From assembly GCA_021820845.1 (NCBI GenBank), contig JAKADC010000004.1, positions 1-64,000 of the forward strand: 64,000 bases of DNA. Direction: 5' to 3'. The position numbers and the translations under genes were made by a program. The notes below the pieces were generated by a model that was not told where the DNA came from, did no database searches, and saw nothing but the letters and a program-made list of their open reading frames with translations. Shown in pieces: positions 5,505 through 19,636 of the stretch; position 1 is the stretch's first letter, and the number at the start of each line of letters is the position of its first letter. Source of the DNA: Pseudomonadota bacterium (GTDB lineage: Bacteria > Pseudomonadota > Gammaproteobacteria > Burkholderiales > Thiobacillaceae).

Positions 5505-5930
5505 ACCGCCGACCGCGCGGCGGTGACACGCCGTCCAGTATTCCGCATCCCCGAAAAGCCCCCGCCACGCCTGCGTCCGCGCGCCTTCAGCGCCGGGCGC
5601 GCGGCGAATCCACGCCGGGCAGCGCCGCCACATTCATTTACGATCGTTAATCGTTGCCATAAAAAAATAAGACTGTTTTATATGGATCGACGACTCTAGG
5701 ATTGCCGTGGCATATCGGGATTGCCGACGTGACACGCCCTCCGTGGCCACAGCCGCTGCGCACGCAATGATAAGCATCGCGCAAGCCACATGGCCAGCAC
5801 CAAGACGATTGGTTATGGATTAACCATCCTCTCGCCAGGGTCAGCCGCGCCGCCTTCCACGATGCGCCGCCGAACCGCCCGCGGAATGTCCGGGCACACG
5901 ACGACACTCGATTCAGGAGGATTTGACGCG
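5505..5930 (+). promoter_or_regulatory. 426-bp leader upstream of the dab operon
   Basis: No convincing gene is seen in this gap. It starts with a hairpin after the cbbR1 stop (5505-5524). An AT-rich tract at 5635-5690 stands out in a GC-rich neighbourhood and contains ACGATCGT and GACTGTTTTATATG (5671-5684), which resembles the cbb promoter motif. An inverted repeat TGGTTA-TGGAT-TAACCA lies at 5810-5826. It probably holds the dabB promoter and a CbbR-type site. A strong AGGAGG ribosome site precedes the dabB ATG at 5931. Confidence 0.5.
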
Positions 5931-7610
5931 ATGGACAAGCTCATGATCCTGCTTCCGGCCACGCCCTTGCTCGCGGCCTTGCTGGTCGCGCTGCGCCCCG
6001 GCCTGGCGCGGCGCAGCGTCGCGCGCCTGAGCGTCGGCTTCAGCGTGCTCACGCTCCTGCTCGCCGCGGCCTCGCTCGCGCTCTATCTGGCGGAAGGCCG
6101 GCCGCAGTGGATGGGATTCGGCGCCGGCTGGGGCAGCCTGTATCTCGATCCCCTGACCAGCGTGATGTCGCTGATGGTCGCGGGCATCAGCCTCGTCGTG
6201 CACGTCTACTCGGTGCGCTACATGGCCGAGGAACCCGGCTACGCGCGCTTCTACGTCCTGCTCGACCTGATGGCGATGGCGATCCTGCTGATGGTCGCCG
6301 CAGGCGATCTCGTCACGCTGCTGGTGGCATGGCACCTGATCGGCGTGCTGCTCTATTTCCTGCTCGGCCACGACAGCGCGCGGCCCGCCGCGCAGCGCTA
6401 TGCCTTCTGGACCTTCCTGACCTATCGCCTGGGCGACCTGCCGCTGGTGCTGGCCGCGGTCCTGCTGTACGAAAGCTACGGCACCGTGGCCCTGCCGACG
6501 CTGTTCGAGCGCATCGCCGCGGCGCCCGACGCGCACACGATCGCGGGCCTGCCGTTGCTCGGCGTCGTGGCGCTGCTCGTCGCGCTGGCGGCGTTCGCCC
6601 GCTCGGCCCAGTTCCCGCTCCACACCTGGCTGCCCTACACGATGGAGGGTCCGACCCCGGTGTCGGCGCTGATGCATGCCGGCATCGTCAACGCCGGCGG
6701 CTTCATCATCAACCGCTTCGCGCCGGTGTTCGTCCACGCCGGCGGCGTCCTCCACCTGGTCTTCGCGGTGGGGCTGGTCACGGCACTGCTCGGCTCGATC
6801 CTGATGCTCACCCAGAACGACATCAAGAAGTCGCTCGGCTACTCGACGATGGGCCAGATGGGCTTCATGTTCGTCGAGATCGGCGTCGGCGCGTTCTCGC
6901 TCGCGATCTACCACCTGATCGCGCACGGCCTGTTCAAGGGCACGCTCTTCCTGGGCGCCGGCAGCGTGATCGGCAACGCGCGCAAGCACGACGGCGTGCC
7001 GCACGACGACGTCTACACCTTCGTCGTCGAACGCAAGCCGCTGGCGTCCCGCCTGCCCTGGGTGGTGGCAGCCGTCATCACGGTGGCGGTGCCGTTCATC
7101 GTGCTCGGCGCGTCGCGCTGGCTGATGGGCGGCAACTCGGTCGGCGAACAGGGCGCGATCATCCTGCTGTTCTTCGGCTGGGTGACCGGCGCCCAGCTTC
7201 TGTTCGCGACCTACCGCCTGCGCGTCGACAGTCCGTGGCGCGTGATGGCGATGATCATCCTCTCGCTGGTCATCGTGGTCGCCGGCTACACGCTGATCGA
7301 ACACGGCTTCGACCTCTTCCTCTATCCCGACCGGATGCTGAGCGAGCGCATCTACGCCGCGGCGAGCATTCCGCTCGCGACCTTCGAAGTGCTGGTGACG
7401 ATCCTCACCGCCGCGATCGTGGTCGGCTGGCTCGCCACCTACTACGCGGCCGCCAACGGCCGCGAGCGGCGCGGCGACACGCCGCCGCTGCGGCTCGCCC
7501 TCTATTCGCTGATTTCGCGCGAGTTCTACGTCGCCGACGTGTACGCCTGGTTCACCCAGGCCGTGCTCGGCCTATCGCGGCGCCTCAACGTTTGGTCAAG
7601 GTGGGTGTGA
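5931..7610 (+). CDS. dabB: DabB, NuoL/MrpA-like membrane subunit of the DAB carbon pump
   Basis: 559-residue polytopic inner-membrane protein of the NADH-quinone oxidoreductase subunit 5/Mrp antiporter superfamily. It has the PVSALMHAGIVNAGGFIINR signature helix and the lysine- and histidine-bearing helices that carry ions in this superfamily. DabB works with DabA: it is thought to pass a cation down its gradient to drive DabA's one-way hydration of CO2 to bicarbonate. The upstream in-frame extension was rejected because AGGAGG sits before the ATG at 5931 and the protein then begins with a hydrophobic helix (MDKLMILLPATPLLAALL). It is the first gene of a four-gene operon with 1-bp gaps or start-stop overlaps. 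Confidence 0.93.
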   Translation: MDKLMILLPATPLLAALLVALRPGLARRSVARLSVGFSVLTLLLAAASLALYLAEGRPQWMGFGAGWGSLYLDPLTSVMSLMVAGISLVVHVYSVRYMAEEPGYARFYVLLDLMAMAILLMVAAGDLVTLLVAWHLIGVLLYFLLGHDSARPAAQRYAFWTFLTYRLGDLPLVLAAVLLYESYGTVALPTLFERIAAAPDAHTIAGLPLLGVVALLVALAAFARSAQFPLHTWLPYTMEGPTPVSALMHAGIVNAGGFIINRFAPVFVHAGGVLHLVFAVGLVTALLGSILMLTQNDIKKSLGYSTMGQMGFMFVEIGVGAFSLAIYHLIAHGLFKGTLFLGAGSVIGNARKHDGVPHDDVYTFVVERKPLASRLPWVVAAVITVAVPFIVLGASRWLMGGNSVGEQGAIILLFFGWVTGAQLLFATYRLRVDSPWRVMAMIILSLVIVVAGYTLIEHGFDLFLYPDRMLSERIYAAASIPLATFEVLVTILTAAIVVGWLATYYAAANGRERRGDTPPLRLALYSLISREFYVADVYAWFTQAVLGLSRRLNVWSRWV

Positions 7611-7611
7611 C

Positions 7612-8355
7612 ATGACATTGCTGCTGATCGCCTCGCTGTTCCTGCCGCTGTTTCCGCTGAGTGCGGTGTTCAACGCCGCACTCACGCGGACGCAGAATCC
7701 CGCCGTGCGCTACGTGCTGCTGCTCGTGTGGCCGCAGCTGGGCGTGGCGCTGCTGCAGCTCGCCGCGCACGACGTGCCGCCCTATTTCGTGCCCTGGGCG
7801 CTCATGACGTCGGGACTCTACGCACTTCGGCTGCTGACGGTGCGCGACATGGGCCGCTGGGCCGGCTTTCTCGCCACCTCCGGCCTCGCGCTCGCCTGGG
7901 CGCTCGCCGCAAGCGGCGCCGACATCGCCGACCTGCACCTCTTCGCCTTCTGGTTCAGCCTGCCGTCCGCGGTGATGGCGCTGCTCGCCCATGCGCTGGA
8001 CCGGCGTTTCGGCGCGGCGTACGCCGGCCTTCACGGCGGGCTCATCGGGCCGCTGCCGCGCCTGTCGGGCGTGCTGGCGGTGACGGCGCTGGCCGCGGTC
8101 GCCACGCCGCCCTTTCCCGGCTTCTTCGGCCTGTTACGGGTGCTGCACGCGCTCGACTGGACGGGTGCGGTGGCCGGACTCGCGATATGGCTCGTCTGGG
8201 GCTGGGCCGCGACGAAGCTGCTGCAGGGATTCATCTTCGGCGTCGACCGTCCCGCGCCCGGCGCGGACATCGGACGGGCCTCGACGCTCGCGTTTACCGG
8301 TGTGTTCGGCCTTTTCGTCGCAGCCGGTCTCTACCTGACGGGAGGGGGTCTATGA
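7612..8355 (+). CDS. Polytopic membrane protein between dabB and dabA
   Basis: 247-residue, very hydrophobic protein with about seven predicted membrane segments. The VATPPFPGFFGLLR stretch recalls antiporter-like subunits of complex I (NuoM/NuoN family), so it may be a short accessory ion-channel subunit. It starts one base after the dabB stop and overlaps dabA by ATGA, which implies coupled translation and membership in the pump. I do not recognise a standard gene name. DAB operons of some chemolithotrophs carry an extra membrane gene here, whereas minimal DAB systems need only DabA and DabB. Confidence 0.85.
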   Translation: MTLLLIASLFLPLFPLSAVFNAALTRTQNPAVRYVLLLVWPQLGVALLQLAAHDVPPYFVPWALMTSGLYALRLLTVRDMGRWAGFLATSGLALAWALAASGADIADLHLFAFWFSLPSAVMALLAHALDRRFGAAYAGLHGGLIGPLPRLSGVLAVTALAAVATPPFPGFFGLLRVLHALDWTGAVAGLAIWLVWGWAATKLLQGFIFGVDRPAPGADIGRASTLAFTGVFGLFVAAGLYLTGGGL

Positions 8356-11300
8356 AGCTCGAACTGGGACGACGCCTGAAGATTCGCGCCATGGTCCACG
8401 TGGCCGGGGAGCCCATTCCGTTTTTCTGGCCGATGCGCACCTTCATCCACCACAACCCGCTCTACGGGCTGGAACATCTTCCGTTCGAGCAGGCGGTCGG
8501 CGAGGGCGAGCGCCTGTTCCACGCGCGCGGCTTCCTGCCGCGTCCGCTCCAGCAGCGCTATCTGGCGTCGGGCGCGGTCGAACTCGGCGCGCTCGAGGCG
8601 CAGGTGCAGCGCTTCGTCGCGGCCCAGCCCGACATCGCCGGCCTCGACCTGCAGCGGCTGCTGATGACGCTGATGACGGAAACCGAGGCGCCCATCGGCG
8701 CGCCGCCCTCGCTCGCCGACGCCGGCGACATCCACGCCGCGCTGAACGGCTTTGCCGTGCCGCCGCGGAAAATCGGCGGCGCCGCGCTCACGGCCCAGGT
8801 CGGCGCGGACATGCCGCCCGGCCGCCCGCTCTACGCGATCGTGGACATGCTCTTCGGCAGCGAGATCGGCGCGACGCTGAACGAACTCGTGATCAAGAGC
8901 TGCCTCGATTTCTTCGACGAAGGGCAGTCGGTGTGGCAGATGCCCGGCCGCGAGAAGGGCCTGTTCGCCGCGTGGAGCGCGGTGGCGCGGCGCAACCTCC
9001 GGCTGTTCATCCGCGGCCTGCACATCAAGCGCATCCTCGCCGCCGACAACACCCCCGAGGGCGTCATCCAGCACGTCATGGACGAGCTCGGCGTGCCCGA
9101 AGACGACTGGATGAGCCACTTCACCTGCGAACTGACGCGGCTGCACGGCTGGGCCGGCTTCATCCGCTGGCGCGCGGGCGCCAAGCATTACCACTGGAGC
9201 CGGCACTACCCGGCCGACCTCGTCGACTATCTCGCGATCCGCCTGGTGCTGGGCCTCGCCCTGCTGCGCGAGCACGCGCAGCGCAAGGGCACGCCCGCCC
9301 GCCTCGCCGACCTCGCGCGCTTCGTCGAGGCGCATCCGGCCGAGGCCTACCTGCGGCGCGAACTGCACAGCGGGCGCGTGCTGCCGGACATGGCGCACGC
9401 GGTCGAGGAGGCGATCAGCGCGGCGCGGCCGGCGCGCATCGAGCGCATCCTGCCGGACTACCTGTCGCGCAAGCGCGAGCGCGAGGCACAGCGCCACGCC
9501 GCCGCCCTGCGCACACTCGCGACCCGCGCCGGATTGGCCGACGCGCTGCCGCGGCTCGCGCCCGAGGCGGTCGGGCAGCTGACGGCCCTGCTCGCGCGCT
9601 TCGAACGGGAAGAGGGTCTCATGTGGCTCAACGCGCGCGAAGCCCACTACATGGGCGGCCTGCTGCGCGAACTCGTCCTCGCCGATCCCGCGCCGCGCGA
9701 GAAGCGTCCGTTCGCCCAGGTCATGTTCTGCATCGACGTCCGCTCCGAACGCATCCGGCGCCACCTGGAGAAGGTCGGCGACTACCAGACCTTCGGCATC
9801 GCGGGCTTCTTCGGGATTCCCGTGAGCTTCATCGGTCTCGACAAAGGCAGCGAGACGCAGCTCTGCCCGGTCGTCGCAACCCCGAAGAACGTCGTGCTGG
9901 AACTCGCGATCACGCGCAGCGCCGACGACCAGGCCTTCATGTCGACGCTCGAGCAGGTGTTCCACGAGTTGAAGGCGTCGGTGCTCTCGCCCTTCATCAC
10001 GGTCGAGGCGATCGGCCTGCTGTTCGGGCTCGACATGTTCGGCAAGAGCCTCGCGCCGCTCGCCTACAACCGCTGGCGCCGGCGGCTGCATCCCGACAGG
10101 CCCGACAGCCGGCTGCTGCTCGACAAGCTTTCGCGCGAGCAGGCCGATTCGATCATCCGCTCGCTGCAGCGCGCGATGATCGTCAAGGCGGTGGGGCGCG
10201 AACTCGGCATCGAGCGCGAGGCGCTCACCGACGAGATGATCCGCGAGCTGCGCGAGACGGCGCTCGGCAATCATTCCGGCCCCACGGACTTCGCGCGCGC
10301 GTTCAAGCTCGACGCCGCGGCCGAGACGCGCTTCGTCGAGCGCCTGCGCGCGGTGTACCGCATCAACCGCGGCTATGCGCGCATTCAGCTCGAGCGGCTC
10401 GGACGGATCGGGTTCAGTCTCGACGAGCAGGTGCATTTCGTCAGCCAGGCGTTGCGTTCGATCGGCCTGACCGAAGGCTTCTCGCGTTTCGTGCTGCTGG
10501 CCGGACACGGCAGCACGTCGGAGAACAACCCCTACGAATCGGCGCTCGATTGCGGCGCCTGCGGCGGCAACCACGGCATCACGAACGCCCGCGTGCTCGC
10601 CCAGATCGCCAACAAGTCCGCGGTGCGCGCCCGCTTGCGCGAGCAGGGCATCGCGATCCCCGACGACGCCTGGTTCGTGCCGGCCTTCCACAACACGACC
10701 ACCGACGAACTGCGCCTGTACGACCTCGACCTCCTGCCGTCGAGCCACCTCGTCTACGTCGAGCGGCTCAGCAACGGCCTGCAGGCTGCGTCGCGCCTGT
10801 GCGCCGCGGAACGCATCGGGACGCTGGAGAACCTGCGGGACAAGGATGCCGATCCGGCGAGCGCCTACCGGCTCGCGCGCCGCAATGCCATGGACTGGTC
10901 GCAGGTGCGGCCGGAGTGGGGGCTCGCGGGCAATGCGGCCTTCGTCATCGGGCGCCGCCACGTCACCGACCGGCTCGACCTCGCGGGCCGCGTGTTCCTG
11001 CATTCCTATGATTACCGCTGCGACCCCAAGGGGCGCCTGCTCGAAAACATCCTCGCCGGCCCGCTCGTGGTCGGCCAGTGGATCAACATGGAGCATTACT
11101 TCTCGGCGGTCGACAACGATCACTACGGCAGCGGCAGCAAGGTCTACCACAACATCGCCGGACGCTTCGGCGTCATGACCGGCAACCTGTCGGACCTGCG
11201 CACCGGGCTGCCGGCGCAGACCGTGCTCAAGGACGGCGCGCCCTACCACGAGCCGCTGCGCCTGCTCACCGTGATCGAGGCGCCGTTCGCGCACGCGCGG

Positions 11301-11474
11301 TCCGCCATCGAAGGCGTCGTGAAGGTGCGCAACCTGGTGCACAACGGCTGGCTGCGCATGGCGGTGGCCGATCCGGAATCCGGCGACGTTTACGTGTTCG
11401 AGGACGGCGCGTGGCAACCGCACGCGCTGCGCGCCGTCGGCAACGCCATCGAAGAAAAGGAGCTCACGCTATGA
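8352..11474 (+). CDS. dabA: DabA, zinc protein of the DAB inorganic-carbon pump (DUF2309)
   Basis: 1040-residue protein with the beta-carbonic-anhydrase-like zinc site of DabA. Visible ligands and partners are C460 and D462 in MFCIDVRSE, H719 in LAGHGST, and C734 in LDCGACGGNHG. The H-to-C spacing of 15 equals that in the characterised Halothiobacillus protein, and the C-x-D motif is kept. It is longer than the roughly 830-residue form and so belongs to the long DabA subgroup. With DabB it is thought to convert CO2 to bicarbonate vectorially at the cytoplasmic membrane, filling the bicarbonate pool that carboxysomes use. The start at 8352 overlaps the previous stop by ATGA. The C-terminus overlaps the PII-like gene the same way. 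Confidence 0.95.
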   Translation: MKLELGRRLKIRAMVHVAGEPIPFFWPMRTFIHHNPLYGLEHLPFEQAVGEGERLFHARGFLPRPLQQRYLASGAVELGALEAQVQRFVAAQPDIAGLDLQRLLMTLMTETEAPIGAPPSLADAGDIHAALNGFAVPPRKIGGAALTAQVGADMPPGRPLYAIVDMLFGSEIGATLNELVIKSCLDFFDEGQSVWQMPGREKGLFAAWSAVARRNLRLFIRGLHIKRILAADNTPEGVIQHVMDELGVPEDDWMSHFTCELTRLHGWAGFIRWRAGAKHYHWSRHYPADLVDYLAIRLVLGLALLREHAQRKGTPARLADLARFVEAHPAEAYLRRELHSGRVLPDMAHAVEEAISAARPARIERILPDYLSRKREREAQRHAAALRTLATRAGLADALPRLAPEAVGQLTALLARFEREEGLMWLNAREAHYMGGLLRELVLADPAPREKRPFAQVMFCIDVRSERIRRHLEKVGDYQTFGIAGFFGIPVSFIGLDKGSETQLCPVVATPKNVVLELAITRSADDQAFMSTLEQVFHELKASVLSPFITVEAIGLLFGLDMFGKSLAPLAYNRWRRRLHPDRPDSRLLLDKLSREQADSIIRSLQRAMIVKAVGRELGIEREALTDEMIRELRETALGNHSGPTDFARAFKLDAAAETRFVERLRAVYRINRGYARIQLERLGRIGFSLDEQVHFVSQALRSIGLTEGFSRFVLLAGHGSTSENNPYESALDCGACGGNHGITNARVLAQIANKSAVRARLREQGIAIPDDAWFVPAFHNTTTDELRLYDLDLLPSSHLVYVERLSNGLQAASRLCAAERIGTLENLRDKDADPASAYRLARRNAMDWSQVRPEWGLAGNAAFVIGRRHVTDRLDLAGRVFLHSYDYRCDPKGRLLENILAGPLVVGQWINMEHYFSAVDNDHYGSGSKVYHNIAGRFGVMTGNLSDLRTGLPAQTVLKDGAPYHEPLRLLTVIEAPFAHARSAIEGVVKVRNLVHNGWLRMAVADPESGDVYVFEDGAWQPHALRAVGNAIEEKELTL

Positions 11475-11797
11475 ACCACCTCAATCTCAGCCCGTTGAAG
11501 AAGATCGAGATCATTCTCGAAGGCGCGCATCAGGAATTCGCCACCGACCTGCTCGACCGCGCCGGCGTGACGGGCTACACCATCGTCGGCAACCTCTCGG
11601 GCAAGGGCCGCCACGGTTTCCACGAAGGCCACCTCATGTTCAACGAGGATGCCGTGCTGATCATGATCATCGTCGCCGTGCCGGGGGAACTGGTCGAGCC
11701 GATCCTCGAAGGCTTTTCGCCCTTCTTCAACAGCCATACGGGCGTCGTGTTCATCTCCGACATCCAGGTCAGCCGGCTGGTGAAGTTCAAGAGCTAG
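11471..11797 (+). CDS. PII-like signalling protein of the DAB operon (CPII-type)
   Basis: 108-residue protein with the PII ferredoxin-like fold pattern: KKIEIILEGAHQEFATDLL at the start, a T-loop region around NLSGKGRHGFHEGH, and a C-terminal GVVFISDIQVSRLVKF strand. The uridylylated tyrosine motif of GlnB is absent. Related carboxysome- and bicarbonate-linked PII-like proteins bind adenine nucleotides and bicarbonate. It starts inside the dabA stop (ATGA), so it is translated with the pump and probably tunes its activity to energy or bicarbonate state. It ends 18 bp from the convergent cbbR2 stop. Confidence 0.85.
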   Translation: MNHLNLSPLKKIEIILEGAHQEFATDLLDRAGVTGYTIVGNLSGKGRHGFHEGHLMFNEDAVLIMIIVAVPGELVEPILEGFSPFFNSHTGVVFISDIQVSRLVKFKS

Positions 11798-11815: not shown

Positions 11816-12766
11816 CTATGAGCGCGTCACCCGCCGGCGCGAGCGCGTCACCGGCTTCGGCTGCGGCAGCTTCATGATGCGGTCGGCCTCGTTCAGCACG
11901 AATTCGTGGAACGCCTGCGCGATCGGCGACATGCGCTTGCCGCTGCGGTGGACCATGTACCACTCCTTCATGATCGGGAAGCCCTCGACGCTGAGGATGG
12001 CGACGCGGCCCAGCGCCAGCTCGAATTCCAGCGTGTGCAGCGACACGATGCCGAGGCCCAGGCCCGCCATCACCGCGTGCTTGATCGCCTCGTTGCGACT
12101 CATCTCCATCGACGCGTTGAACTTGACGCCGTGCTGCTGGAAGAAGCGCTCGACCGCGTTGCGCGTGCCGGAGCCGCGCTCGCGCAGGATGAAGTTCTCC
12201 TCGACGAGCCGGCTCAGCGACACGCGGGAGACGCCGACGAGCGGATGGTCCGGCGGCGCGATGATCACCAGCGGGTTCTGCATGAAGGCCTGCGACTGCA
12301 GCTCGATGTTCTCGGGCGGCGTGCCCATGATCGCCATGTCGGGCGCGTTGTCCTGCAGCTGCTGCACGACTTCCTCGCGGTTGGTGACCTCGAGATGCAC
12401 CTGGGTGCCGGGATAGCGCTTGAGGAAGGCCGCCAGCAGGTAGGGGGCGAAGTATTTGCCCGTGCTGGTGACGGTGAGCGAGAGCGTCCCGCGCTTCACG
12501 CCCTTCATGTCGTCGAGCACCGATTCGATGTCGCGGAATTGCTGGGCGATGGCGCGGCTGAAGGCATAGACCTCCTTGCCGACCTCGGTGAGAAAGATCT
12601 TCTTGCCCATCTGCTCGAAGAGCGGCATCCCGACCTCCTCCTCGAGCTGCTTGATCTGGGTCGAGACCGCGGGCTGCGTGAGATGCAGCTCCTCGGACGC
12701 GCGGGTGAAGCTGGAATGGCGCGCGACGGCCTCCAGCAGGCGCAATTGGCGAAATGTGACGTTCAC
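11816..12766 (-). CDS. cbbR: CbbR-type LysR regulator next to the carboxysome operon
   Basis: 316-residue LysR regulator of the CbbR subfamily. The helix-turn-helix is near residues 5-65 (FRQLRLLEAVARHSSFTRAS, LTQPAVSTQIKQLEEE) and an effector domain follows. The C-terminus is arginine-rich (TRSRRRVTRS). It is transcribed away from csoS2 across a 171-bp AT-rich region, in the place where many carboxysome loci have cbbR followed by cbbLS. It is most likely the carboxysome-operon regulator. It differs from cbbR1 (4566-5504) and cbbR3 (32025-32918) throughout the effector domain, which fits separate effectors or thresholds. Confidence 0.93.
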   Translation of the reverse strand: MNVTFRQLRLLEAVARHSSFTRASEELHLTQPAVSTQIKQLEEEVGMPLFEQMGKKIFLTEVGKEVYAFSRAIAQQFRDIESVLDDMKGVKRGTLSLTVTSTGKYFAPYLLAAFLKRYPGTQVHLEVTNREEVVQQLQDNAPDMAIMGTPPENIELQSQAFMQNPLVIIAPPDHPLVGVSRVSLSRLVEENFILRERGSGTRNAVERFFQQHGVKFNASMEMSRNEAIKHAVMAGLGLGIVSLHTLEFELALGRVAILSVEGFPIMKEWYMVHRSGKRMSPIAQAFHEFVLNEADRIMKLPQPKPVTRSRRRVTRS

Positions 12767-12937
12767 GGTGATCCTTTCCGGGCGCTTTATCCATTCACCT
12801 TAGTGAATGACAACAATAAATATTATTCATTTTTTATTATGCAACTGTCTCTTTATAGTTTGCAACAAGGGCAACAGGCACGCATGCCCGACGCCAGACC
12901 CTAATGATCAACCGCTGAAGCATAAGGAAACCAGATT
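12767..12937. promoter_or_regulatory. Divergent cbbR2/csoS2 promoter region
   Basis: Strongly AT-rich for this genome. It carries a perfect inverted repeat CATTCAC-CTTA-GTGAATG (12792-12809) compatible with T-N11-A, a TAA-N7-TCA match (12817-12829) to the CbbR TNA-N7-TNA consensus, and GTCTCTTTATAG (12847-12858), which is like strings in the other cbb promoters. A TAAGGA ribosome site precedes the csoS2 ATG at 12938. Confidence 0.6.
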
Positions 12938-14926
12938 ATGAGTGAAGCGACAGCAACCGCCACAACCGAACGCCTCAGCGGCCGGGAAGCGGCCATCGCC
13001 CGCCGCCAGGCGCTCTCCCTCCACGGGAAGAGTGCGCTCCAGACCGGCAAGACCGCTGCGCCCAGGAGCGCAACCGAAGCCCGTATGGCTGCGCGCGCCA
13101 GCGCACCCGTTCCCACCGCGACGTCAGCGGCACCGGCCGGAACGCCGAGCTGCGGCTGCCAGCATAGCGAGACCTATTCCGCGCGCGTCGAAGAGGCGCG
13201 GCCAGCCACGCCCGTGGCGCTGGCGCCGATCTCCAGCGCACGCCAGCGCCGCATCGAGCAATCGCTGCGCGGCCGTGGCGACGCGCCGCCCTGCCGCCCC
13301 TGCGGCCGCATCAAGCCCGAGCCGCCGAAGGTGGAAATCGGCACGACGCTGGCAGGCAGCACCGTGACCGGCAACCAGGTCGAGCGCACCGCGCACGTGA
13401 CCGGCAACGAGCCGGGCACCTGCCGCACCGTCACCGGTACCGAATACGTCGGCGCCGAGCAGTTCGGCGAATTCTGCGGCACGCTGCCCGAGCCGGCACC
13501 GGCCAAGGTCGGCACGACCAGCACCAGCCGCGGCCGCCGCGTCACCGGCACCGAAGTCGGCCGCAGCACGCGGGTGACCGGCGACGAGACCGGCACCTGC
13601 AAGCGCGTGACCGGCACCGAATACCTCGCCGCCGAGCAGGCCGGCGAATTCTGCGGCACGGCACCCGAGCCGCGCCCGGAAAAGGCGGTGATGGGCATGA
13701 CGGCGGCGCGCAATGCCGTGTCCGGCAGCGATCTCGCCCGCACCACGAAGGTGACCGGCGGCGAGTCCGGCGCGTCGCGCAACATCACCGGCAGCGCCTA
13801 CGCCGACGCGCTGGTGCGCCCATCCGCCGAGGGCAACAGCCCAAAAAAGGTGGAAACCCGTCGCACGAGCAATGGCGCAACGGTGAGCGGCACCCTACCG
13901 GGTCGTTCACCGAAACTTTCCGGCGATGAGCCGGGCGCCTGCGCACGCGTGACGGGTTCCGACTACGTCAATACCGAAGAATTCAAGTCCTTCTGCCGCG
14001 CCGAACCCTACCAGTCGCCGGCCAAGGTCGGCGTGTCGCGCACCCTCAAGGGCCTCGACGTGTCCGGCACCCAGGTCGGCCGTTCGGCGCAGGTGACCGG
14101 CGACGAGCACGGCGCCTGCAAGCCGGTGACCGGGACGTCCTACATCGGCGCCGACCAGTACGCCGAGTTCTGCGCGGCGCGCACCGCGGCGGAAGCGATC
14201 AACCGCGCCCGCCTCGGCCGCAACGCCGACCTCACCGGCATCCAGCCGGGGCCCGACGACAAGATGACCGGCAACGAGCGCGGCACCTGCCAGCCGGTGA
14301 GTGGCACGCCCTACCAGGGCGAGAGCCAGACCGCGGCCGCCTGCGGTCGTCCGCCCATGGCACAGGCCTACCGCAGCCGCGGCCCCGAGGGCTCGCAGGC
14401 GCCTGCCGCGATCACCGGCAACGCGATGGACGCCGGCCAGGGCGGCAACCGCACCGGCGACTTTTCCGTGGTGTCGCCGGCGCGCGCCGCGCAGTCGAGC
14501 GAGACCCGTCGCGTCACCGGCAGCGCCTACGGCGTCGGCGGCCGCATCACCGGTCCCCTGGCCCGCGCCACCGGCCTGGTGTCCGGCACGCCCGAATTCC
14601 GCTACCGCGACGAGGCGGGCGCCGTGGCCGTTCCGGCCGCGCCGCAGCCGGTGACCGAGCCCGCGCCCCAACGCATCACCGGCGAAGGCCGCGAGCGCCA
14701 CATCACCGGCGACGCCTGGGATCGCGGCAACCGCGTGACCGGCACCGAAGGTCCGGCGACCCGTCGCAATCCGACCCTGCGCGGCGATCCGCGTGGCAAC
14801 GGCGCCACCGCCCGCGACAACCGCGAGATCGAGCGTCCGGCACCGACCGCCAGCCGCATCACCGGCAGCAGCGGCAATGCCAGCGGCGGCGCGGCGATCA
14901 CCGTGTCCGGCGGCGCCCGGGGCTGA
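12938..14926 (+). CDS. csoS2: CsoS2, carboxysome assembly scaffold protein
   Basis: 662-residue, disordered, low-hydrophobicity scaffold that joins RuBisCO to the alpha-carboxysome shell. The N-region has one good RuBisCO-binding helix (residues 14-31, REAAIARRQALSLHGK) and a degenerate second one near 100-112. The middle region has repeats with paired VTG/VSG motifs and cysteines at about 131-180, 190-239, 249-292, 303-353, 362-412 and a weak one at 423-469; the third lacks its cysteines. The C-region (490-560) and the C-terminal peptide (570-662, repeated ITG) contact the shell. At 662 residues it is short: the Halothiobacillus protein is about 870 residues with four N-repeats. It starts the operon and is followed by csoSCA after 25 bp. 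A candidate -1 frameshift site lies at 13843-13849. Confidence 0.96.
   Translation: MSEATATATTERLSGREAAIARRQALSLHGKSALQTGKTAAPRSATEARMAARASAPVPTATSAAPAGTPSCGCQHSETYSARVEEARPATPVALAPISSARQRRIEQSLRGRGDAPPCRPCGRIKPEPPKVEIGTTLAGSTVTGNQVERTAHVTGNEPGTCRTVTGTEYVGAEQFGEFCGTLPEPAPAKVGTTSTSRGRRVTGTEVGRSTRVTGDETGTCKRVTGTEYLAAEQAGEFCGTAPEPRPEKAVMGMTAARNAVSGSDLARTTKVTGGESGASRNITGSAYADALVRPSAEGNSPKKVETRRTSNGATVSGTLPGRSPKLSGDEPGACARVTGSDYVNTEEFKSFCRAEPYQSPAKVGVSRTLKGLDVSGTQVGRSAQVTGDEHGACKPVTGTSYIGADQYAEFCAARTAAEAINRARLGRNADLTGIQPGPDDKMTGNERGTCQPVSGTPYQGESQTAAACGRPPMAQAYRSRGPEGSQAPAAITGNAMDAGQGGNRTGDFSVVSPARAAQSSETRRVTGSAYGVGGRITGPLARATGLVSGTPEFRYRDEAGAVAVPAAPQPVTEPAPQRITGEGRERHITGDAWDRGNRVTGTEGPATRRNPTLRGDPRGNGATARDNREIERPAPTASRITGSSGNASGGAAITVSGGARG
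13829..13912 (+). promoter_or_regulatory. Candidate programmed -1 frameshift signal in csoS2
   Basis: The heptamer A AAA AAG (13843-13849) is in the csoS2 reading phase (codons 302-304, CCA AAA AAG), the same slippery sequence as in E. coli dnaX. A Shine-Dalgarno-like GAGGG (13829-13833) lies 9 bases upstream. An 11-bp stem (13881-13891 with 13902-13912, two G.U pairs, 10-base loop) lies 31 bases downstream. A -1 shift would add 26 residues and stop at 13927-13929, giving a 330-residue short CsoS2. Halothiobacillus csoS2 is known to use -1 frameshifting to make a short form. Confidence 0.5.
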
Positions 14927-14951
14927 GCAGGCGTAGCGAGGACGATCCGGC

Positions 14952-16526
14952 ATGAATACCCGTCAACGTCTCGACGCGATGCGCGCGCGCCAATCCGCTC
15001 CGGCGGGCATGGCGATGCGCACCGCGCCGGCCGCGAGCATGCTGCCGAGCTGGCCCCAGCGCGTGAGCTTCTGCCCGCCCGGCATGCAGGAACGCGCCGG
15101 CGAGTGCGTGACCAGCGCCTGCGCGCCGCAAGCCCATCCGCTGATCGACGCGGCGCGCAATGCCGAACTGGCCGACTACGAGCGCACGGTGCGCGCCCGC
15201 TTCGACGCCATCGTGCCGACGCTCAAGGAGATCGCCGCGCAGCAGCATGAGGCCGGTTTCGAGCAGCGCGCGCAGCAGATCGCACGCGAGCGCCTCGGCT
15301 TCGAACTGCCTGAAACGGTGCTCGCCGACGCCTGGGTGACCACGCTCGACATGCGCAAGCTTTACGGCCACAGCGTGCTGCAGACCTACCACACCCTGGC
15401 CCGGGACTACGCCGCGCGCTGGAACGGCCGCGACGAGGTCGAAGCCATGCAGCGCTTCTTCGTCGAATGCGGCTTCCACGAGATCGACATCAGCCCCTGC
15501 GCCGATGGCCGTCTCAAGGGCCTGCTGCAGTTCGTGCTGCGCCTGCCGCTCCAGGCGGTGCGCCGCAAGTCCTACGCCGGCGCCATGTTCGACGTCGAAC
15601 TGAACGTCAAGCACTGGACCGAGACCGAGCTGCGCCGCTTCCGCGAGGGCGTGCCGACGCTGTCGGACGCCGGCACGCGCTACCTCAAGATCGCCGTCTA
15701 CCACTTCAGCAGTTCGGACCCGCATCACGAAGGCTGCGCGGCTCACGGCAGCGACGATCGCAAGGCCGCCCAGGCTGCGCTCGATCGCCTGGCCGCCTTC
15801 CGCACCGCGATCGAGAACGGCTTCTGTTGCGGCGCCTCGGTCGCGACGCTGCTGATCGGCGTGGACACCGACAACGACGCGATCAAGATCCACGTGCCCG
15901 ACGCCAACGGTGAAATGGACACGGCATGCTTCGTCGACAACTTCGCCGTGTACCAGCAGACCGCCGGCATGGCCGCCTCGGAAGCACGCTGGCGCCTCGG
16001 CGCCGCGATCGACGAGGCCGTGCGCGAGGCTGGCCGCAGCGCGCCGGAAACCGGCATGCGCAGCCTGATCGAGCGCCTGCTCACGAACAATCTGTCGCAG
16101 ATCGACTATGTCTGCGCCAACCACGGCGGCCGCTACGCCGACGTCGGCCACGCCGAGCGCTTCATCAACCTCGGCGACAGCTTCGATGTGCTGCATCTGC
16201 GCAACCTGGCCTACTTCGGCCACCTGAACACGATCGAGGAAGGCGCGGCGGACGTGGACGTCGGCATCAAGATCTTCAGCAAGCTGAACGTGGCACACGG
16301 CCTGCCGATTCCGATCGCGATCCATTTTCGCTACGACGAGCAGGTGCCGGGTTCGCGCGAGCGCGCGGCGGCGCGCTGCCGCCGAATCAGGGCCGCGATC
16401 GAGACGCGCTATCCGGTTCTGGCCAAGGAAGGCCTGCTGTTCTGCGGCATGACGGTGCAGGGCAAGCAGCCGGGCAGCGCGCAGGAAGCCGTGACGGACA
16501 TCGAACCCGATTCGCATGGGCATTGA
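14952..16526 (+). CDS. csoSCA: CsoSCA (CsoS3), carboxysomal carbonic anhydrase
   Basis: 524-residue epsilon/beta-type carbonic anhydrase that sits inside the carboxysome shell and turns bicarbonate into CO2 for RuBisCO. The zinc ligands are clear: C183 in SPCADGR, where the Asp-Arg pair is also kept, H251 in AVYHFSSSDPHHEGC, and C262 at the end of that stretch. Domain order is normal: an N-terminal disordered and helical part, the catalytic domain, then a C-terminal domain that has lost its own zinc site. The N-terminal about 50 residues contain arginines and anchor the family's RuBisCO-binding peptide. It lies 25 bp after csoS2 and 9 bp before csoS4A. Confidence 0.96.
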   Translation: MNTRQRLDAMRARQSAPAGMAMRTAPAASMLPSWPQRVSFCPPGMQERAGECVTSACAPQAHPLIDAARNAELADYERTVRARFDAIVPTLKEIAAQQHEAGFEQRAQQIARERLGFELPETVLADAWVTTLDMRKLYGHSVLQTYHTLARDYAARWNGRDEVEAMQRFFVECGFHEIDISPCADGRLKGLLQFVLRLPLQAVRRKSYAGAMFDVELNVKHWTETELRRFREGVPTLSDAGTRYLKIAVYHFSSSDPHHEGCAAHGSDDRKAAQAALDRLAAFRTAIENGFCCGASVATLLIGVDTDNDAIKIHVPDANGEMDTACFVDNFAVYQQTAGMAASEARWRLGAAIDEAVREAGRSAPETGMRSLIERLLTNNLSQIDYVCANHGGRYADVGHAERFINLGDSFDVLHLRNLAYFGHLNTIEEGAADVDVGIKIFSKLNVAHGLPIPIAIHFRYDEQVPGSRERAAARCRRIRAAIETRYPVLAKEGLLFCGMTVQGKQPGSAQEAVTDIEPDSHGH

Positions 16527-16535
16527 GGTGAAGTC

Positions 16536-16793
16536 ATGAAGATCATGCAAGTGGAAAAAACCCTGGTGTCGACCAACCGCGTACGCGAGATGGGCCACCG
16601 GCCGCTGCTGGTGGTGCGGGAGAAGGCCGGCGGTGCACGCAGCGTGGCGGTCGATGCAGTGGGCTGCATCCCGGGCGACTGGGTGATCTGCGTCGGCAGT
16701 TCGGCGGCGCGCGAGGCAGCGGGCGCGAAGGACTTCCCGAGCGACCTGACCATCATCGGCATCATCGACCACTGGCAGCAGCAGGAGCATTGA
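16536..16793 (+). CDS. csoS4A: CsoS4A, carboxysome vertex protein
   Basis: 85-residue EutN/CcmL-type pentamer (MKIMQVEKTLVSTNRV...). Pentamers of this family close the twelve vertices of the icosahedral shell. Family marks are the LVSTNRV start, the DAVGCIPGDWVICVGSSAAR core and the TIIGIIDHW end. It starts after a GAGGTGAAG ribosome site and is separated from csoS4B by one base, so the two vertex genes are translated together. Its length is normal for the family. Confidence 0.95.
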   Translation: MKIMQVEKTLVSTNRVREMGHRPLLVVREKAGGARSVAVDAVGCIPGDWVICVGSSAAREAAGAKDFPSDLTIIGIIDHWQQQEH

Positions 16794-16794
16794 G

Positions 16795-17085
16795 ATGGAG
16801 ATCATGCGCGTGGTGTCCGATCTGGTGTGCACGCGGCGCATTCCCGGCCTCTTTCACGCGTCGCTGCGCGTGCTGGCCGACGCGAAAGGCACGCTCGCCG
16901 TGGCCGTGGATCCAGTCGGTGTTCCGGAAGGGAAATGGGTATTTACCGCCGGCGGCTCGGCCGCCCGCTATGGCGCCGGCGATTACAGGATTCTTACCGA
17001 TTTGACGATCCTCGGGATCATCGATCAGTGGAATGTGGTGGATGAGCACCACAAGGCAAGCAAGGCAGTTTCATTAACCGTGTAA
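16795..17085 (+). CDS. csoS4B: CsoS4B, second carboxysome vertex protein
   Basis: 96-residue EutN/CcmL-type pentamer, paralogous to CsoS4A (core DPVGVPEGKWVFTAGGSAAR and end LTILGIIDQWNVVDE). In alpha-carboxysomes CsoS4A and CsoS4B together seal the shell; loss of both makes it leak CO2. It starts one base after the csoS4A stop. Its C-terminal tail is about ten residues longer than in CsoS4A. It is followed by the first csoS1 gene after 12 bp with a strong AAAGGAGAAA ribosome site. Confidence 0.95.
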   Translation: MEIMRVVSDLVCTRRIPGLFHASLRVLADAKGTLAVAVDPVGVPEGKWVFTAGGSAARYGAGDYRILTDLTILGIIDQWNVVDEHHKASKAVSLTV

Positions 17086-17097
17086 AGGAGAAACATC

Positions 17098-17397
17098 ATG
17101 GCAAACGTAATGACGGGCATCGCTCTGGGAATGATTGAAACACGCGGTCTGGTGCCGGCGATCGAAGCCGCCGACGCCATGACCAAGGCCGCCGAAGTGC
17201 GCCTGATCGGCCGCCAGTTCGTCGGCGGCGGCTACGTGACCGTGCTGGTGCGCGGCGAGACGGGTGCGGTCAACGCCGCGGTCCGTGCCGGCGCCGACGC
17301 CTGCGAGCGCGTGGGTGACGGCCTGGTCGCCGCCCACATCATCGCCCGCGTGCACAACGAAGTCGAAAACATCCTGCCGACCGCGGCTGCGGCCTGA
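17098..17397 (+). CDS. csoS1: CsoS1, hexameric shell protein, copy 1
   Basis: 99-residue BMC-domain protein that forms the hexagonal facets of the carboxysome shell. The whole protein is one BMC fold (GMIETRGLVPAIEAADAM, then GQFVGGGYVTV-type pore region and HIIARVHNEVENILP). After the first four residues it is identical in protein sequence to copy 2, although the DNA of the first two thirds differs at many silent sites. A strong ribosome site (AAAGGAGAAA) fits a shell protein needed in thousands of copies. It corresponds to CsoS1A/CsoS1C of other bacteria; which letter applies cannot be decided from sequence alone. Confidence 0.96.
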   Translation: MANVMTGIALGMIETRGLVPAIEAADAMTKAAEVRLIGRQFVGGGYVTVLVRGETGAVNAAVRAGADACERVGDGLVAAHIIARVHNEVENILPTAAAA

Positions 17398-17433
17398 GCG
17401 AACTGAAAGCAACTTGTAATAGGAGATAGGAAA

Positions 17434-17733
17434 ATGGCTACTGGAATGACTGGCATTGCCCTCGGCATGATCGAAACCCGCGGACTGGTTCCCGCCATCG
17501 AGGCGGCGGACGCGATGACCAAGGCAGCGGAAGTGCGCCTGATCGGCCGCCAATTCGTCGGCGGCGGCTACGTGACGGTTCTGGTGCGCGGCGAGACCGG
17601 TGCGGTGAACGCCGCGGTTCGCGCCGGTGCGGATGCGTGCGAGCGCGTGGGTGACGGCCTGGTCGCCGCCCACATCATCGCTCGCGTGCACAACGAAGTC
17701 GAAAACATCCTGCCGACCGCTGCCGCGGCCTGA
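17434..17733 (+). CDS. csoS1: CsoS1, hexameric shell protein, copy 2
   Basis: 99-residue BMC shell hexamer, differing from copy 1 only near residues 3-4 (MATGM versus MANVM). It lies 36 bp downstream with its own TAGGAGATAGG ribosome site. The last 83 bp of shared coding sequence (17638-17720) match copy 1 (17302-17384) at all but one base, while upstream parts differ at many third positions, which suggests recent gene conversion. It tiles shell facets with the other CsoS1 paralogues and lets bicarbonate and sugar phosphates pass through its central pore. Confidence 0.96.
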   Translation: MATGMTGIALGMIETRGLVPAIEAADAMTKAAEVRLIGRQFVGGGYVTVLVRGETGAVNAAVRAGADACERVGDGLVAAHIIARVHNEVENILPTAAAA

Positions 17734-17745
17734 TGGGGGTGCGCC

Positions 17746-18120
17746 ATGGACATGGCAGTTGAAACGAAGCGTCCGGTCATGACGGGCACGGCCACCGGGC
17801 TTGCGCTCGGCATGATCGAGACGCGGGGCCTGGTGCCCGCGATCGAGGCGGCGGACGCGATGACCAAGGCGGCGGAGGTGCGGCTGATCGGCCGCCAGTT
17901 CGTCGGCGGCGGCTACGTCACCGTCCTCGTTCGCGGCGAGACCGGCGCGGTCAACGCGGCGGTTCGCGCCGGCGCGGATGCGTGCGAGCGGGTGGGCGAC
18001 GGGCTGATCGCCGCCCACATCATCGCCCGCGTGCACGGCGAAGTGGAAACCATCCTGCCGACGGAGCCCGGTGCCGGCGAAGCCGGACGCGACGGCGACG
18101 TGACCGGCATCGCCGCCTAG
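17746..18120 (+). CDS. csoS1B: CsoS1B-like shell protein with extended termini
   Basis: 124-residue BMC shell protein. The central domain matches the two shorter copies almost residue for residue, but it has about 13 extra N-terminal residues (MDMAVETKRPVMTGTATG) and about 14 extra acidic, glycine-rich residues at the C-terminus (EPGAGEAGRDGDVTGIAA). A C-terminal extension is the mark of CsoS1B. It begins 12 bp after copy 2 behind a GGGGGTG ribosome site; a second ATG at 17752 is a possible start. It ends 14 bp before the bacterioferritin gene. It is probably a minor facet component mixed with the other hexamers. Confidence 0.93.
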   Translation: MDMAVETKRPVMTGTATGLALGMIETRGLVPAIEAADAMTKAAEVRLIGRQFVGGGYVTVLVRGETGAVNAAVRAGADACERVGDGLIAAHIIARVHGEVETILPTEPGAGEAGRDGDVTGIAA

Positions 18121-18134
18121 CGAAAGGGGGCGGC

Positions 18135-18584
18135 ATGGCAATCGATCCACGGCTGTTGGGGTATCTGAACCGGGCGCTGGGCCATGAAATGGCGGCAGTC
18201 CAGCAATACATGGCCCAGTCCAGGCTCTGCGACCAGTGGGGCATGGCGGACCACTGCGCGCATTTTCGCGAGGACGTCACCGAGGAACTCGGCCACGTGC
18301 AAAGCCTGATGGACGCCCTGCTCCGGCTCGGTTCCGCGCCCAATGCCACGCAGTTGCCGCCGGTGCGGCTCGGCCGCAGCCTGGGCGAAATGATCGCGAT
18401 CGATCGCGTGCTCGAAGTCGAGGCGGTCCGGCTGTACGAGGAAGCTGCGGCCTATTGTGCGCGGGTGCGCGACTTCGTCCACCACGGCCTGTTCACGGGC
18501 ATCCTGCGCGACGAGTTGACGCATCTGGACGAGCTTCGCAAGATGGAGGCCGACTTGCCCGAAAAGGAACAGCGTTATGCCTGA
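18135..18584 (+). CDS. bfr: Bacterioferritin-like protein of the carboxysome operon
   Basis: 149-residue ferritin-like four-helix protein. All six di-iron ferroxidase ligands are at canonical bacterioferritin numbers: E18, E51, H54, E94, E127, H130; Y25 is also present. The haem-ligating methionine 52 is leucine here (EELGH), so the protein probably lacks the bis-Met haem. Bacterioferritin homologues are common in alpha-carboxysome operons, but their role is unknown; iron or redox homeostasis near the shell is a guess. The ATG at 18135 follows a GAAAGGGGG ribosome site. An upstream out-of-phase extension was rejected. It overlaps the acRAF gene by 8 bp. Confidence 0.93.
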   Translation: MAIDPRLLGYLNRALGHEMAAVQQYMAQSRLCDQWGMADHCAHFREDVTEELGHVQSLMDALLRLGSAPNATQLPPVRLGRSLGEMIAIDRVLEVEAVRLYEEAAAYCARVRDFVHHGLFTGILRDELTHLDELRKMEADLPEKEQRYA

Positions 18585-18846
18585 AGACAACAACCCCATT
18601 CCGCACTGGCGGCGGCAGGACCTGCCGCCCATGCTGACGCGGCGTTACGAATTCGAGACCTACGCCCAGACGCGGCATTTCCTGGACGGCGTCGCCAAGC
18701 TGTCCGAGGAGGCGGGCCTGTATCCGAACCTGAGCTTCGGCAAGACCTACGTCAGCGTCACCCTCGACGCCGACGGCAAGAAGATCGGACCCGACTGCGT
18801 CGCGCTGGCCCAGAAGATCGACGGCCTGGTCGCGCCGGCGAACTGA
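18577..18846 (+). CDS. acRAF, pterin dehydratase-like RuBisCO assembly factor
   Basis: 89-residue protein with the pterin-4a-carbinolamine dehydratase (PCD) fold pattern: YEFETYAQTRHFLDGVAKL helix, a GLYPNLSFGKTYVSVTL strand pair and an LAQKIDG C-terminal helix. The catalytic HHP motif of true PCD is replaced by LYP, so it is unlikely to be an enzyme. Alpha-carboxysome operons carry such a protein (acRAF), which aids folding or assembly of form I RuBisCO. Its presence implies that a form IA RuBisCO is handled by this operon even though no cbbLS lies in it. It overlaps the bacterioferritin gene by 8 bp and precedes mcdA by 5 bp. Confidence 0.9.
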   Translation: MPEDNNPIPHWRRQDLPPMLTRRYEFETYAQTRHFLDGVAKLSEEAGLYPNLSFGKTYVSVTLDADGKKIGPDCVALAQKIDGLVAPAN

Positions 18847-18851
18847 CGCCC

Positions 18852-19490
18852 ATGCCCGGCCTGCGCATCGCGGTCGCGAACCAGAAAGGCGGCACGGGCA
18901 AGACGACCCTGGCGCTCAACCTGGCCGCTGGCCTGCAGCGACGCGGCAGCACGCTCGTGCTGGACGCGGACCCGCAAGCCTCGATCAGCCAGTGGGCGGC
19001 CATCGGCGACGCGCGCGGGCACCTGCCCGCGGTCCACGCGGTGGCGCAGGACGACGTCCCCGGCCGCATCGCGGCCGGCATGCGCGGACACCGCTACGTC
19101 GTGATCGACTGCCCGCCCACGCTGCAGACCGCGACGGTGGGCGACGTGCTGAACAGCGTCGACGTGCTGCTGGTGCCGATCCAGCCCTCGCCCGTCGATC
19201 TCTGGGCGAGCGTGGACATCACCGCGGCGGTGCGCGACTCGCGCCGGCGCAACCCCCGGCTCAAGGCCTTCGCCGTGCTGAACCAGCTCGACACGCGCAA
19301 CGCGCTTTCGCGCGCCATGCACGAAGCCCTGGCCGAGCTGGAATTCCCCACCCTGCGCGCCGGCCTCGCGCGGCGCGCCGCCTACCGCAGCGCGGCCGTG
19401 GAAGGCACCAGCGTGTACGGCCTCGGCCACCGCGGCAAGGCGGCCGCCCACGAAGTTGAAGCCCTGATCGAGGAGTTACTGCAATCATGA
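18852..19490 (+). CDS. mcdA: McdA, ParA-type carboxysome positioning ATPase
   Basis: 212-residue ParA/MinD-family ATPase. The deviant Walker A KGGTGKTT at residues 12-19 includes the signature lysine K12. LVLDADPQAS and YVVIDCPP mark the switch and Walker B strands. Such short ParA proteins in cso operons are alpha-McdA: they bind the nucleoid with ATP and are released by McdB on carboxysomes, which spaces the compartments along the cell. The ATG at 18852 is 5 bp after acRAF, and the stop overlaps the next start as ATGA, so McdA and McdB are co-translated. A plasmid-partition role is unlikely in this operon. Confidence 0.93.
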   Translation: MPGLRIAVANQKGGTGKTTLALNLAAGLQRRGSTLVLDADPQASISQWAAIGDARGHLPAVHAVAQDDVPGRIAAGMRGHRYVVIDCPPTLQTATVGDVLNSVDVLLVPIQPSPVDLWASVDITAAVRDSRRRNPRLKAFAVLNQLDTRNALSRAMHEALAELEFPTLRAGLARRAAYRSAAVEGTSVYGLGHRGKAAAHEVEALIEELLQS

Positions 19491-19636
19491 ACAAGACATC
19501 CAGCAAGCTCGCGGACGGCGTGCGCAAAGTGAAGGCGCGCCAGGAAAGCGCCGCCGAAACCGAACCACCGAAGGCCGCGCCGGCACCCAAGCCCGCGCCG
19601 CAGCCGGTGCATCCCGACCGCGTCTGGCCGGACTGA
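19487..19636 (+). CDS. mcdB: McdB, small carboxysome positioning adaptor (alpha type)
   Basis: A 49-codon gene that is easy to miss. Its ATG overlaps the mcdA stop (ATGA). The product starts MNKTSSKLADGVRKVKARQE, a basic amphipathic segment, then a Pro/Ala/Lys-rich disordered stretch, and ends HPDRVWPD with W47 two residues from the end. Alpha-McdB proteins are known to be small and disordered with a conserved basic N-terminus and an invariant tryptophan near the C-terminus that attaches them to carboxysomes. Position, composition and this tryptophan all fit. At 49 residues it is at the short end for such proteins. It closes the carboxysome operon. Confidence 0.82.
   Translation: MNKTSSKLADGVRKVKARQESAAETEPPKAAPAPKPAPQPVHPDRVWPD

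Follow-up and report, generated by a model that had tools for sequence, protein, structure and literature searches.

An alpha-carboxysome operon without its own cbbLS in the Thiobacillaceae, and a cbbQ-linked form IA RuBisCO as its probable cargo

The DNA analysed here (the window; bases 1-64000 of a 210-kb contig) codes for an alpha-carboxysome operon that spans 12938-19490, from csoS2 to mcdA, and has no cbbLS of its own. We consider it probable that this is a real carboxysome operon and that its cargo is the cell's sole form IA RuBisCO, encoded 8.5 kb away, which would have a dual use. This reading rests mainly on the gene content and on the RuBisCO-binding peptide of CsoS2 (N-peptide). The gene content, the absence of another cbbLS, the lineages of cbbLS and csoS2 and the sequence conservation were observed directly. 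Packaging of the cbbQO-linked enzyme is likelier than a second cbbLS elsewhere. It is supported, at the sequence level, by the N-peptide, by docking-site residues, by linkage of the two loci (25 of 37 genomes) and by recurrence in other families.

The layout itself has already been published for the family. A complete csoS1-4 locus with cbbLS elsewhere (a split locus) is described for the Thiobacillaceae in PMC9164163, from five cultured genomes with csoS2 plus two informative MAGs; the trait was thought likely in all Thiobacillaceae. PMC2570492 names T. denitrificans as the exception that has a cso operon without cbbLS. The window genome belongs to this split category. It shares with the loci in PMC9164163 the genus, a csoS2 without adjoining cbbLS, a cbbLS kilobases away, and the placement of this cbbLS outside those of typical carboxysome loci. 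New here are the spread, the main lineage, the reduced CsoS2 and the docking-site pattern; a limited literature search found no report of a wider split lineage or of a reduced CsoS2 N-terminal domain.

The cso operon and the RuBisCO genes

The cbbLS locus lies on the minus strand. It consists of cbbQ (1462..2265; RuBisCO activase subunit, downstream of cbbS, assigned by homology and by its position beside cbbLS in relatives, with AAA-type matches below cut-off), cbbS (2515..2871; cbbQ-linked type according to alignments) and cbbL (2980..4401; form IA large subunit and proposed cargo, assigned by PF00016/PF02788, tree and residues). The stretch before cbbQ is taken as a putative cbbO because of its position. 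On the plus strand follow cbbR1 (4566..5504; LysR regulator divergent from cbbLSQ, by profile match and tree), a dabB-like gene (5790..7610; proton-antiporter-family subunit of inorganic carbon uptake, PF00361 and PF00662, named by its position before dabA), an ORF containing dabA (7728..11474; inorganic carbon transporter subunit, PF10070, E 9.2e-256) and a gene for a P-II-like protein (11480..11797, start approximate; PF00543 over aa 141-234 of ORF 11078-11797). The true start of dabA is later than the ORF start at 7728, and the Pfam match covers aa 223-1209. The LysR regulator gene cbbR2 (11816..12766, minus strand; profile match, CbbR tree with support 100) occupies the usual place of cbbLS and is separated by 171 bp from the divergent csoS2.

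The genes that follow are all on the plus strand. They are csoS2 (12938..14926; 662 aa with a short N-terminal domain; PF12288, solved homologues, trees), csoSCA (14952..16526; carboxysomal carbonic anhydrase, three CsoSCA Pfam domains, solved homologues), the vertex protein genes csoS4A (16536..16793) and csoS4B (16795..17085), both PF03319, and three csoS1 genes for shell hexamer proteins (17098..17397, 17434..17733 and, for a longer paralogue, 17746..18120; PF00936). An ORF with a bacterioferritin-like gene (17982..18584, start probably at ~18135; PF00210, with TIGR00754 below its cut-off) and the gene for an acRAF-type, pterin-dehydratase-like RuBisCO assembly factor (18577..18846; PF01329, acRAF being named by position) precede mcdA (18852..19490; ParA-type ATPase, NF041546 above cut-off). 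A 49-aa ORF (19487..19636), known from the ORF list only, is a possible mcdB. The order csoS2, csoSCA, csoS4AB, csoS1 is that of an alpha-carboxysome operon. Shell, CsoS2, CsoSCA and vertex genes are arranged as in the cso operon of H. neapolitanus (for the typical order, see PMC9164163), from which the window differs by having cbbR2 instead of cbbLS upstream of csoS2 and by a CsoS2 N-terminal domain of ~142 aa with one N-peptide.

A cso operon without cbbLS, with cbbR2 facing csoS2, had been predicted and was borne out by the coordinates and by the Pfam matches in 11816-19636 (CsoS2_M, CsoSCA, two EutN_CcmL, three BMC, a ParA/MinD-type ATPase, and the LysR-type cbbR2). The predicted cbbQ-linked cbbLS 8.5 kb away is likewise in place, as the pair at 2515-4401 with cbbQ next to it, ~8.5 kb from csoS2. 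The original prediction also considered CsoS2, CsoSCA, the vertex and shell proteins, acRAF and McdAB to be intact. This holds for all but McdB, for which there is just the bare 49-aa ORF, and CsoS2 is short. The cbbLS pair had been described as the only one in view, which is correct for form I, but the window also contains a form II cbbM (30508-31887; RuBisCO large-subunit match) with its own cbbQ- and cbbO-like genes (27237-31887).

The genome (2.85 Mb, 24 contigs, 99.98% complete) yields two matches to the RuBisCO large subunit (cbbL and cbbM, both within the window) and a single small-subunit match, the cbbS of the cbbLS pair. A second cbbLS elsewhere, which had been left open as an option, is thus practically excluded: searches with large and small subunits found one form I cbbLS, one cbbM and no further RuBisCO. 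The single-contig genomes of two relatives (G053, G058) likewise code for one form I and one form II enzyme. In T. thioparus DSM 505, the sole form I enzyme is of the cbbQ-linked type, and PMC9164163 mentions polyhedral inclusions in T. thioparus (strain unstated).

The window CsoS2, used as query, matched 15 loci with 68-92% identity among named genomes, including Thiobacillus thioparus DSM 505 (90%), Thiobacillus sp. 0-1251 (92%) and a MAG labelled T. denitrificans UBA2410 (92%); the window's own record may be missing among them. The source is thus a Thiobacillus or a very close relative. When compared with three relatives, csoS2, csoSCA, csoS4AB, csoS1, acRAF, mcdA and cbbR2 are free of stop codons and have dN/dS values of 0.00-0.31. 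LysR-type sites (TNA-N7/8-TNA) were matched four times between cbbR2 and csoS2, with three of the matches overlapping, and not at all between cbbL and cbbR1.

Distribution and descent of split loci

Of 117 family genomes, 64 have a CsoS2 match and 107 a match to the RuBisCO large subunit. Among 77 fetched CbbL rows from the family, some labels of which were refined later, 23 are beside csoS2, 31 have csoS2 elsewhere in the genome, and 23 have no csoS2 match. The 23 adjacent rows represent 21 genomes, 10 from the window's genus. The family and the genus of the window thus hold typical and split loci alike, and with 21 family genomes having an adjacent cbbLS, the published expectation of split loci in all Thiobacillaceae is contradicted.

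Split loci also occur outside the family. In a sample from the order, 44 of 399 genomes code for CsoS2; outside the family, 31 of 37 such genomes have an adjacent cbbLS (G386 being counted on its cbbS), while six, from four families, do not. In each of these six, csoS2 shares its contig with a single full-length form I cbbL, and there is one small subunit. In the class sample (csoS2 in 72 of 369 genomes), adjacency was read from coordinates. When the window is excluded, cbbLS is adjacent in 66 of 71 genomes, split in three, which belong to the genus g187, and at contig ends in two (G555, G810). In one genome counted as adjacent (G828), the gap measures 2.3 kb and cbbL is interrupted by a stop. 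Compared to PMC9164163, split loci are thus extended to four further families of the order and to one genus from another family of the class. The enzyme is cbbQ-linked in all nine split genomes from outside the family.

A CsoS2 tree that leaves out the N-terminal domain unites 32 split-locus rows in a single group (support 99); they come from five families, and no adjacent row falls among them. Three split genomes of the family (G019, G034, G046) are outside this clade and fall among adjacent-type CsoS2 rows, so that splitting or its reverse must have happened at least twice. The three CsoS2 of g187 form a group of their own (support 100). We considered a third independent origin in g187 and dropped it: a tree that holds g187 together with the 32-row clade gains 16.5 log units in fit, and the test does not reject it (p 0.805).

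Upstream regions were checked for 18 of 35 adjacent loci, and cbbR faces cbbL in 17 of them. The CbbR that faces csoS2 in G019, G034 and G046 groups with the cbbL-facing CbbR of the adjacent genomes G026 and G328 (support 99), as expected if cbbLS was removed from between cbbR and csoS2. One further CbbR, from G059, falls into the same group. The cbbR2 of the main lineage forms a separate clade of 14 (support 100), all beside a cbbLS-less csoS2, which points to an older or different splitting event.

The trees are quick trees with SH-aLRT support only, except for the family tree behind the tree-controlled pairs within the family and a family-only scan (see below). A distant form I enzyme (L108) and a partial sequence (L030) were dropped from the trees. 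Three genomes among the 34 split-locus rows (G067, G068, G107) have csoS2 within ~0.6 kb of a contig end, so that their split status is provisional. G113 was labelled adjacent in the first CsoS2 tree, has no cbbLS in the fetched stretch, and was omitted from the later tree.

The proposed cargo enzyme and its docking site

The enzyme of the window resembles form IAq RuBisCO (PMC8718961): cbbLS is followed by cbbQ, and the C terminus of CbbL (KLDVAHK) fits KLDXXHK. CbbS has the 6-aa N-terminal insertion that is also found in form IAq enzymes (PMC2570492). Form IAq enzymes are normally taken as cytosolic, whereas no other form I enzyme could serve as cargo in the window genome, and this one has kept docking-site residues. 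In the CbbLS tree, which covers family rows and H. neapolitanus only (PMC8718961 reports no such clean split more widely), a branch with support 99 has 25 rows on one side (22 adjacent family rows, H. neapolitanus, G047 and G036) and 51 on the other, which include the window enzyme and no adjacent row. The window enzyme thus does not group with the cbbLS of cso operons, as a form IAc enzyme would. Within the family, the CbbS of the window shares 83-100% identity with the cbbQ-linked type and 50-58% with the adjacent type; one distant form I CbbS stands apart (28% identity to that of the window). Two further features of form IAc CbbS, lack of the 6-aa insertion and Tyr96, are absent: the insertion is present and Phe is found at H. 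neapolitanus position 96. The form IAc docking residues of CbbL (Tyr72, Asp99, Ser345, Phe346, Gly362) are all there, but also occur in some of the non-carboxysomal enzymes.

In the window, the CsoS2 N-terminal domain is 142 aa long when counted from Met and contains a single strict match (REAAIARRQALSLHGK) to the motif RxxxxxRRxxxxxxGK (motif per PMC10614612), which is the canonical RuBisCO-binding N-peptide (aa 16-31; 12983..13030, plus strand). Adjacent-type CsoS2 in the family mostly have ~280-330 aa in this domain (counted from the preceding stop) and two to three strict matches. In the 32-row clade, with starts set by rule at the last Met before the motif, the domain has 128-157 aa in 31 members and 195 in G111. 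The N-peptide has RR and the final Lys in 32 of 32 members and the first Arg in 23, which thus have one canonical RuBisCO-binding peptide; the first Arg is replaced by Ser in eight and by Lys in one. The mean frequency of the commonest residue is 0.87 in the N-peptide versus 0.59 in the following linker. Towards its end, the domain has another conserved block (RQRR...GRG; 0.84), in which the first Arg is missing when judged by eye. Since H. neapolitanus CsoS2 has four N-peptide repeats (PMC9314367), avidity may be low with one. That the N-peptide is kept where the sole form I enzyme is cbbQ-linked is the simplest sign of its binding partner. A short N-terminal domain is not in itself a mark of split loci, as it also occurs in the adjacent genomes G453 and G466, while split g187 has a long one (306-341 aa before the first repeat).

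Peptides of CsoS2 and CsoSCA occupy one common site on RuBisCO (PMC10614612). Arg10 of CsoS2 is stacked between CbbL Tyr72 and CbbS Tyr96, and Arg23 of CsoSCA contacts Tyr72, Asp99, Ser345 and Gly362; Phe346 is close by, as may be CbbS Asp94 (PMC10614612). Because the site is shared, a signal at position 345 may concern CsoSCA as much as CsoS2. The window CbbL has Leu25, Tyr72, Asp99, Ser345, Phe346 and Gly362, together with Lys348 and Phe361; its CbbS has Asp94 and Phe96.

Residues were counted in 131 cbbQ-linked or csoS2-free enzymes (118 minus six distant or partial ones and one without CbbS, plus 20 added): 37 split-locus, 38 dual (the genome has another, csoS2-adjacent RuBisCO) and 56 without csoS2. 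L042, whose csoS2 lies at the start of a contig, was set aside, as was L098; L075 and L092 were relabelled dual. The 94 comparison enzymes may include some that are not cbbQ-linked, and some of their genomes are incomplete so that their lack of csoS2 may reflect gaps. In all 37 split-locus enzymes, cbbQ adjoins cbbLS; csoS2 and cbbL are on one contig in 25 of these genomes (~4.5-26 kb apart) and on separate contigs in 12. Ser/Gly345 is found in 33 of 37 split-locus versus 43 of 94 other enzymes, Leu25 (picked after the scan described below) in 37 of 37 versus 48 of 94, and both together in 33 of 37 versus 16 of 94. A residue other than Lys/Arg at position 348 occurs in 19 of 37 versus 7 of 94; the other 18 split-locus enzymes, including that of the window, have Lys348, the usual non-carboxysomal residue. 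Four of the 37 have Glu345. Leu25, Ser345 and Pro348 are all present in the three enzymes of g187. For comparison, 35 adjacent carboxysomal enzymes have Leu25 (35/35), Ser345 (34/35) and Pro/Ala348 (35/35). Fisher values on these counts ignore kinship.

An unbiased scan of 144 variable columns for differences between split-locus and other enzymes had L25, L345, L348 and S97 on top, three of which are at or beside the docking site. None of the four is in the top ten of a control scan (dual genomes versus genomes without csoS2). Taken together, the 14 near-docking columns show no enrichment in the unbiased scan (Mann-Whitney p 0.32); enrichment in its top ten has p 0.059, and there is none when split-locus are compared with dual genomes (p 0.73). 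Tree-controlled pairs for position 345 number 2.1-3.5 for and ~0.1 against across sets (wider set: 2.4 for, 0.06 against; family alone: 3.5 for, 0.1 against), which is never significant and cannot reach 0.05. For CbbS 94, such pairs gave no signal with the presence of csoS2.

Several candidates were discarded. Top columns of a first, wide scan were in several cases probably artefacts, as they were unaligned to H. neapolitanus (ORFs had not been trimmed before the start codon); the later scan was restricted to aligned columns. L333 came first in family-only scans and is outside the top ten in the wider set. The first Arg of the N-peptide and CbbS Asp94 looked like a co-evolving pair, since CbbS 94 is Asn in 7 of 7 members with known CbbS of the Ser-for-Arg clade of eight, but G083 combines Arg with Asn94 and the pattern may reflect one event. 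A comparison of contact residues had been proposed to tell carboxysomal from non-carboxysomal forms. Tyr72, Asp99 and Gly362 are poor markers for this, being present in most form IA enzymes, while positions 345, 25 and 348 discriminate better. The docking-site pattern is suggestive of packaging of the cbbQ-linked enzyme.

Cargo, alternatives and meaning

In the proposed mechanism, the cargo is encoded in a separate operon, cbbR1-cbbLSQ(O). The N-peptide would bind the enzyme at the CbbL2/CbbS groove and tether RuBisCO to the shell, with capture by one strong and perhaps one weaker CsoS2 peptide. CsoSCA would join at the same groove before the shell closes. As cbbLSQ and the cso operon each adjoin a CbbR, the enzyme could be made without shells. 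We infer a regulatory switch by which one enzyme would be cytosolic at ample CO2 and packaged when the cso operon is on. PMC9164163 cites array data for T. denitrificans in which cbbLS, and not csoS1-4, respond to aerobic conditions. In H. neapolitanus, packaging is decided by CbbL and not by CbbS, and the 6-aa CbbS insertion is tolerated (PMC2570492). Some observations speak against packaging: H. neapolitanus does not package the non-carboxysomal form I CbbL of T. crunogena (PMC2570492), the window has Lys348, Phe361 and CbbS Phe96, the pair Leu25 and Ser/Gly345 also occurs in 16 of the 94 comparison enzymes, Glu345 is found in four of the 37 split-locus ones, and a lone N-peptide, with Ser for its first Arg in eight clade members, may bind with low avidity.

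The most serious alternative, which we nonetheless regard as unlikely, is a shell without RuBisCO (empty, with other cargo, or just a CsoSCA container), the enzyme being cytosolic. Mutants of H. neapolitanus form shells that contain no RuBisCO (PMC2570492), carboxysomes were not detected in T. denitrificans according to PMC2570492 and PMC9164163, and the window cbbLS belongs to the cbbQ-linked rather than the adjacent lineage. Against this stand the conservation across five families of an N-peptide whose known role is RuBisCO binding, and the more frequent retention of docking-site residues than among enzymes that lack such an operon. It is very improbable that the operon is a recent foreign or decaying, functionless element. 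Two distinct CsoS2 lineages occur in the window's genus, so that cso operons may move, but the cso genes are intact, their dN/dS values are low, and the CsoS2 lineage spans five families.

The remaining alternatives have next to no probability. A second, carboxysomal cbbLS might be absent from the unclosed assembly of 24 contigs, against which stand its 99.98% completeness, the one small-subunit and two large-subunit matches, and the identical content of G053 and G058. Form II RuBisCO is just as improbable a cargo. Its gene lies 11 kb downstream and is accompanied by cbbQ- and cbbO-like genes of its own, but at the aligned docking positions 72, 345 and 346, CbbM has Phe, Tyr and Met. Form II RuBisCO has no small subunit, which also argues against CbbM as cargo. 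Immunoblots of H. neapolitanus mutant carboxysomes gave no evidence for form II (PMC2570492).

Packaging of the cbbQ-linked form IA enzyme is thus our preferred reading. It is an evenly balanced question if this represents a distinct, old and mobile alpha-carboxysome subtype, in which a cbbR2-csoS2...mcdA module that lacks RuBisCO genes and has a one-peptide CsoS2 recruits any cbbQO-linked form IA enzyme of its host, with switchable packaging and with selection on the enzyme to retain or recover Leu25, Ser345 and sometimes Pro348 at the docking groove. CbbL positions 25, 345 and 348 are candidate residues for the unexplained control of packaging by CbbL (PMC2570492). Should the cbbQO-linked enzyme indeed be packaged, a few docking residues and not lineage would set carboxysomal apart from cytosolic form IA enzymes. 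If true, this would guide the engineering of carboxysomes with chosen RuBisCOs.

Genes neighboring the CO2-fixation cluster

The putative McdB (19487-19636) is rich in Pro, Ala and Lys, and has a length of only 49 aa; McdB proteins are usually longer. The gene for form II RuBisCO, cbbM (30508-31887, minus strand), is followed by its own cbbQ-like gene (29577-30629, minus strand; CbbQ_C domain) and cbbO-like gene (27237-29576, minus strand; VWA domain), which represent a second activase set in the window. The CO2-fixation cluster is adjoined by a gene for a large PAS-GGDEF-EAL c-di-GMP protein (24240-26975, minus strand).

Paired and disrupted csoS2 loci

Two of the surveyed genome bins each contain two differing csoS2 loci (G066: L065 and L087; G090: L030 and L057). 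Because these bins are 8% and 6% contaminated, respectively, the pairs may result from a mixing of genomes. The csoS2 gene is interrupted by a stop codon in G084 (L020/L132) and spread across several ORFs in G071 (L029/L137), reflecting either MAG error or decay.

A variant N-peptide and CbbS position 94

In one clade of eight CsoS2 sequences (L021, L022, L023, L025, L026, L027, L028 and L031, from genomes G103, G067, G043, G068, G073, G100, G074 and G059), the first Arg of the RuBisCO-binding N-peptide is replaced by Ser. CbbS position 94 is Asn in all seven members for which CbbS is known. Together, these substitutions possibly represent a compensatory change.
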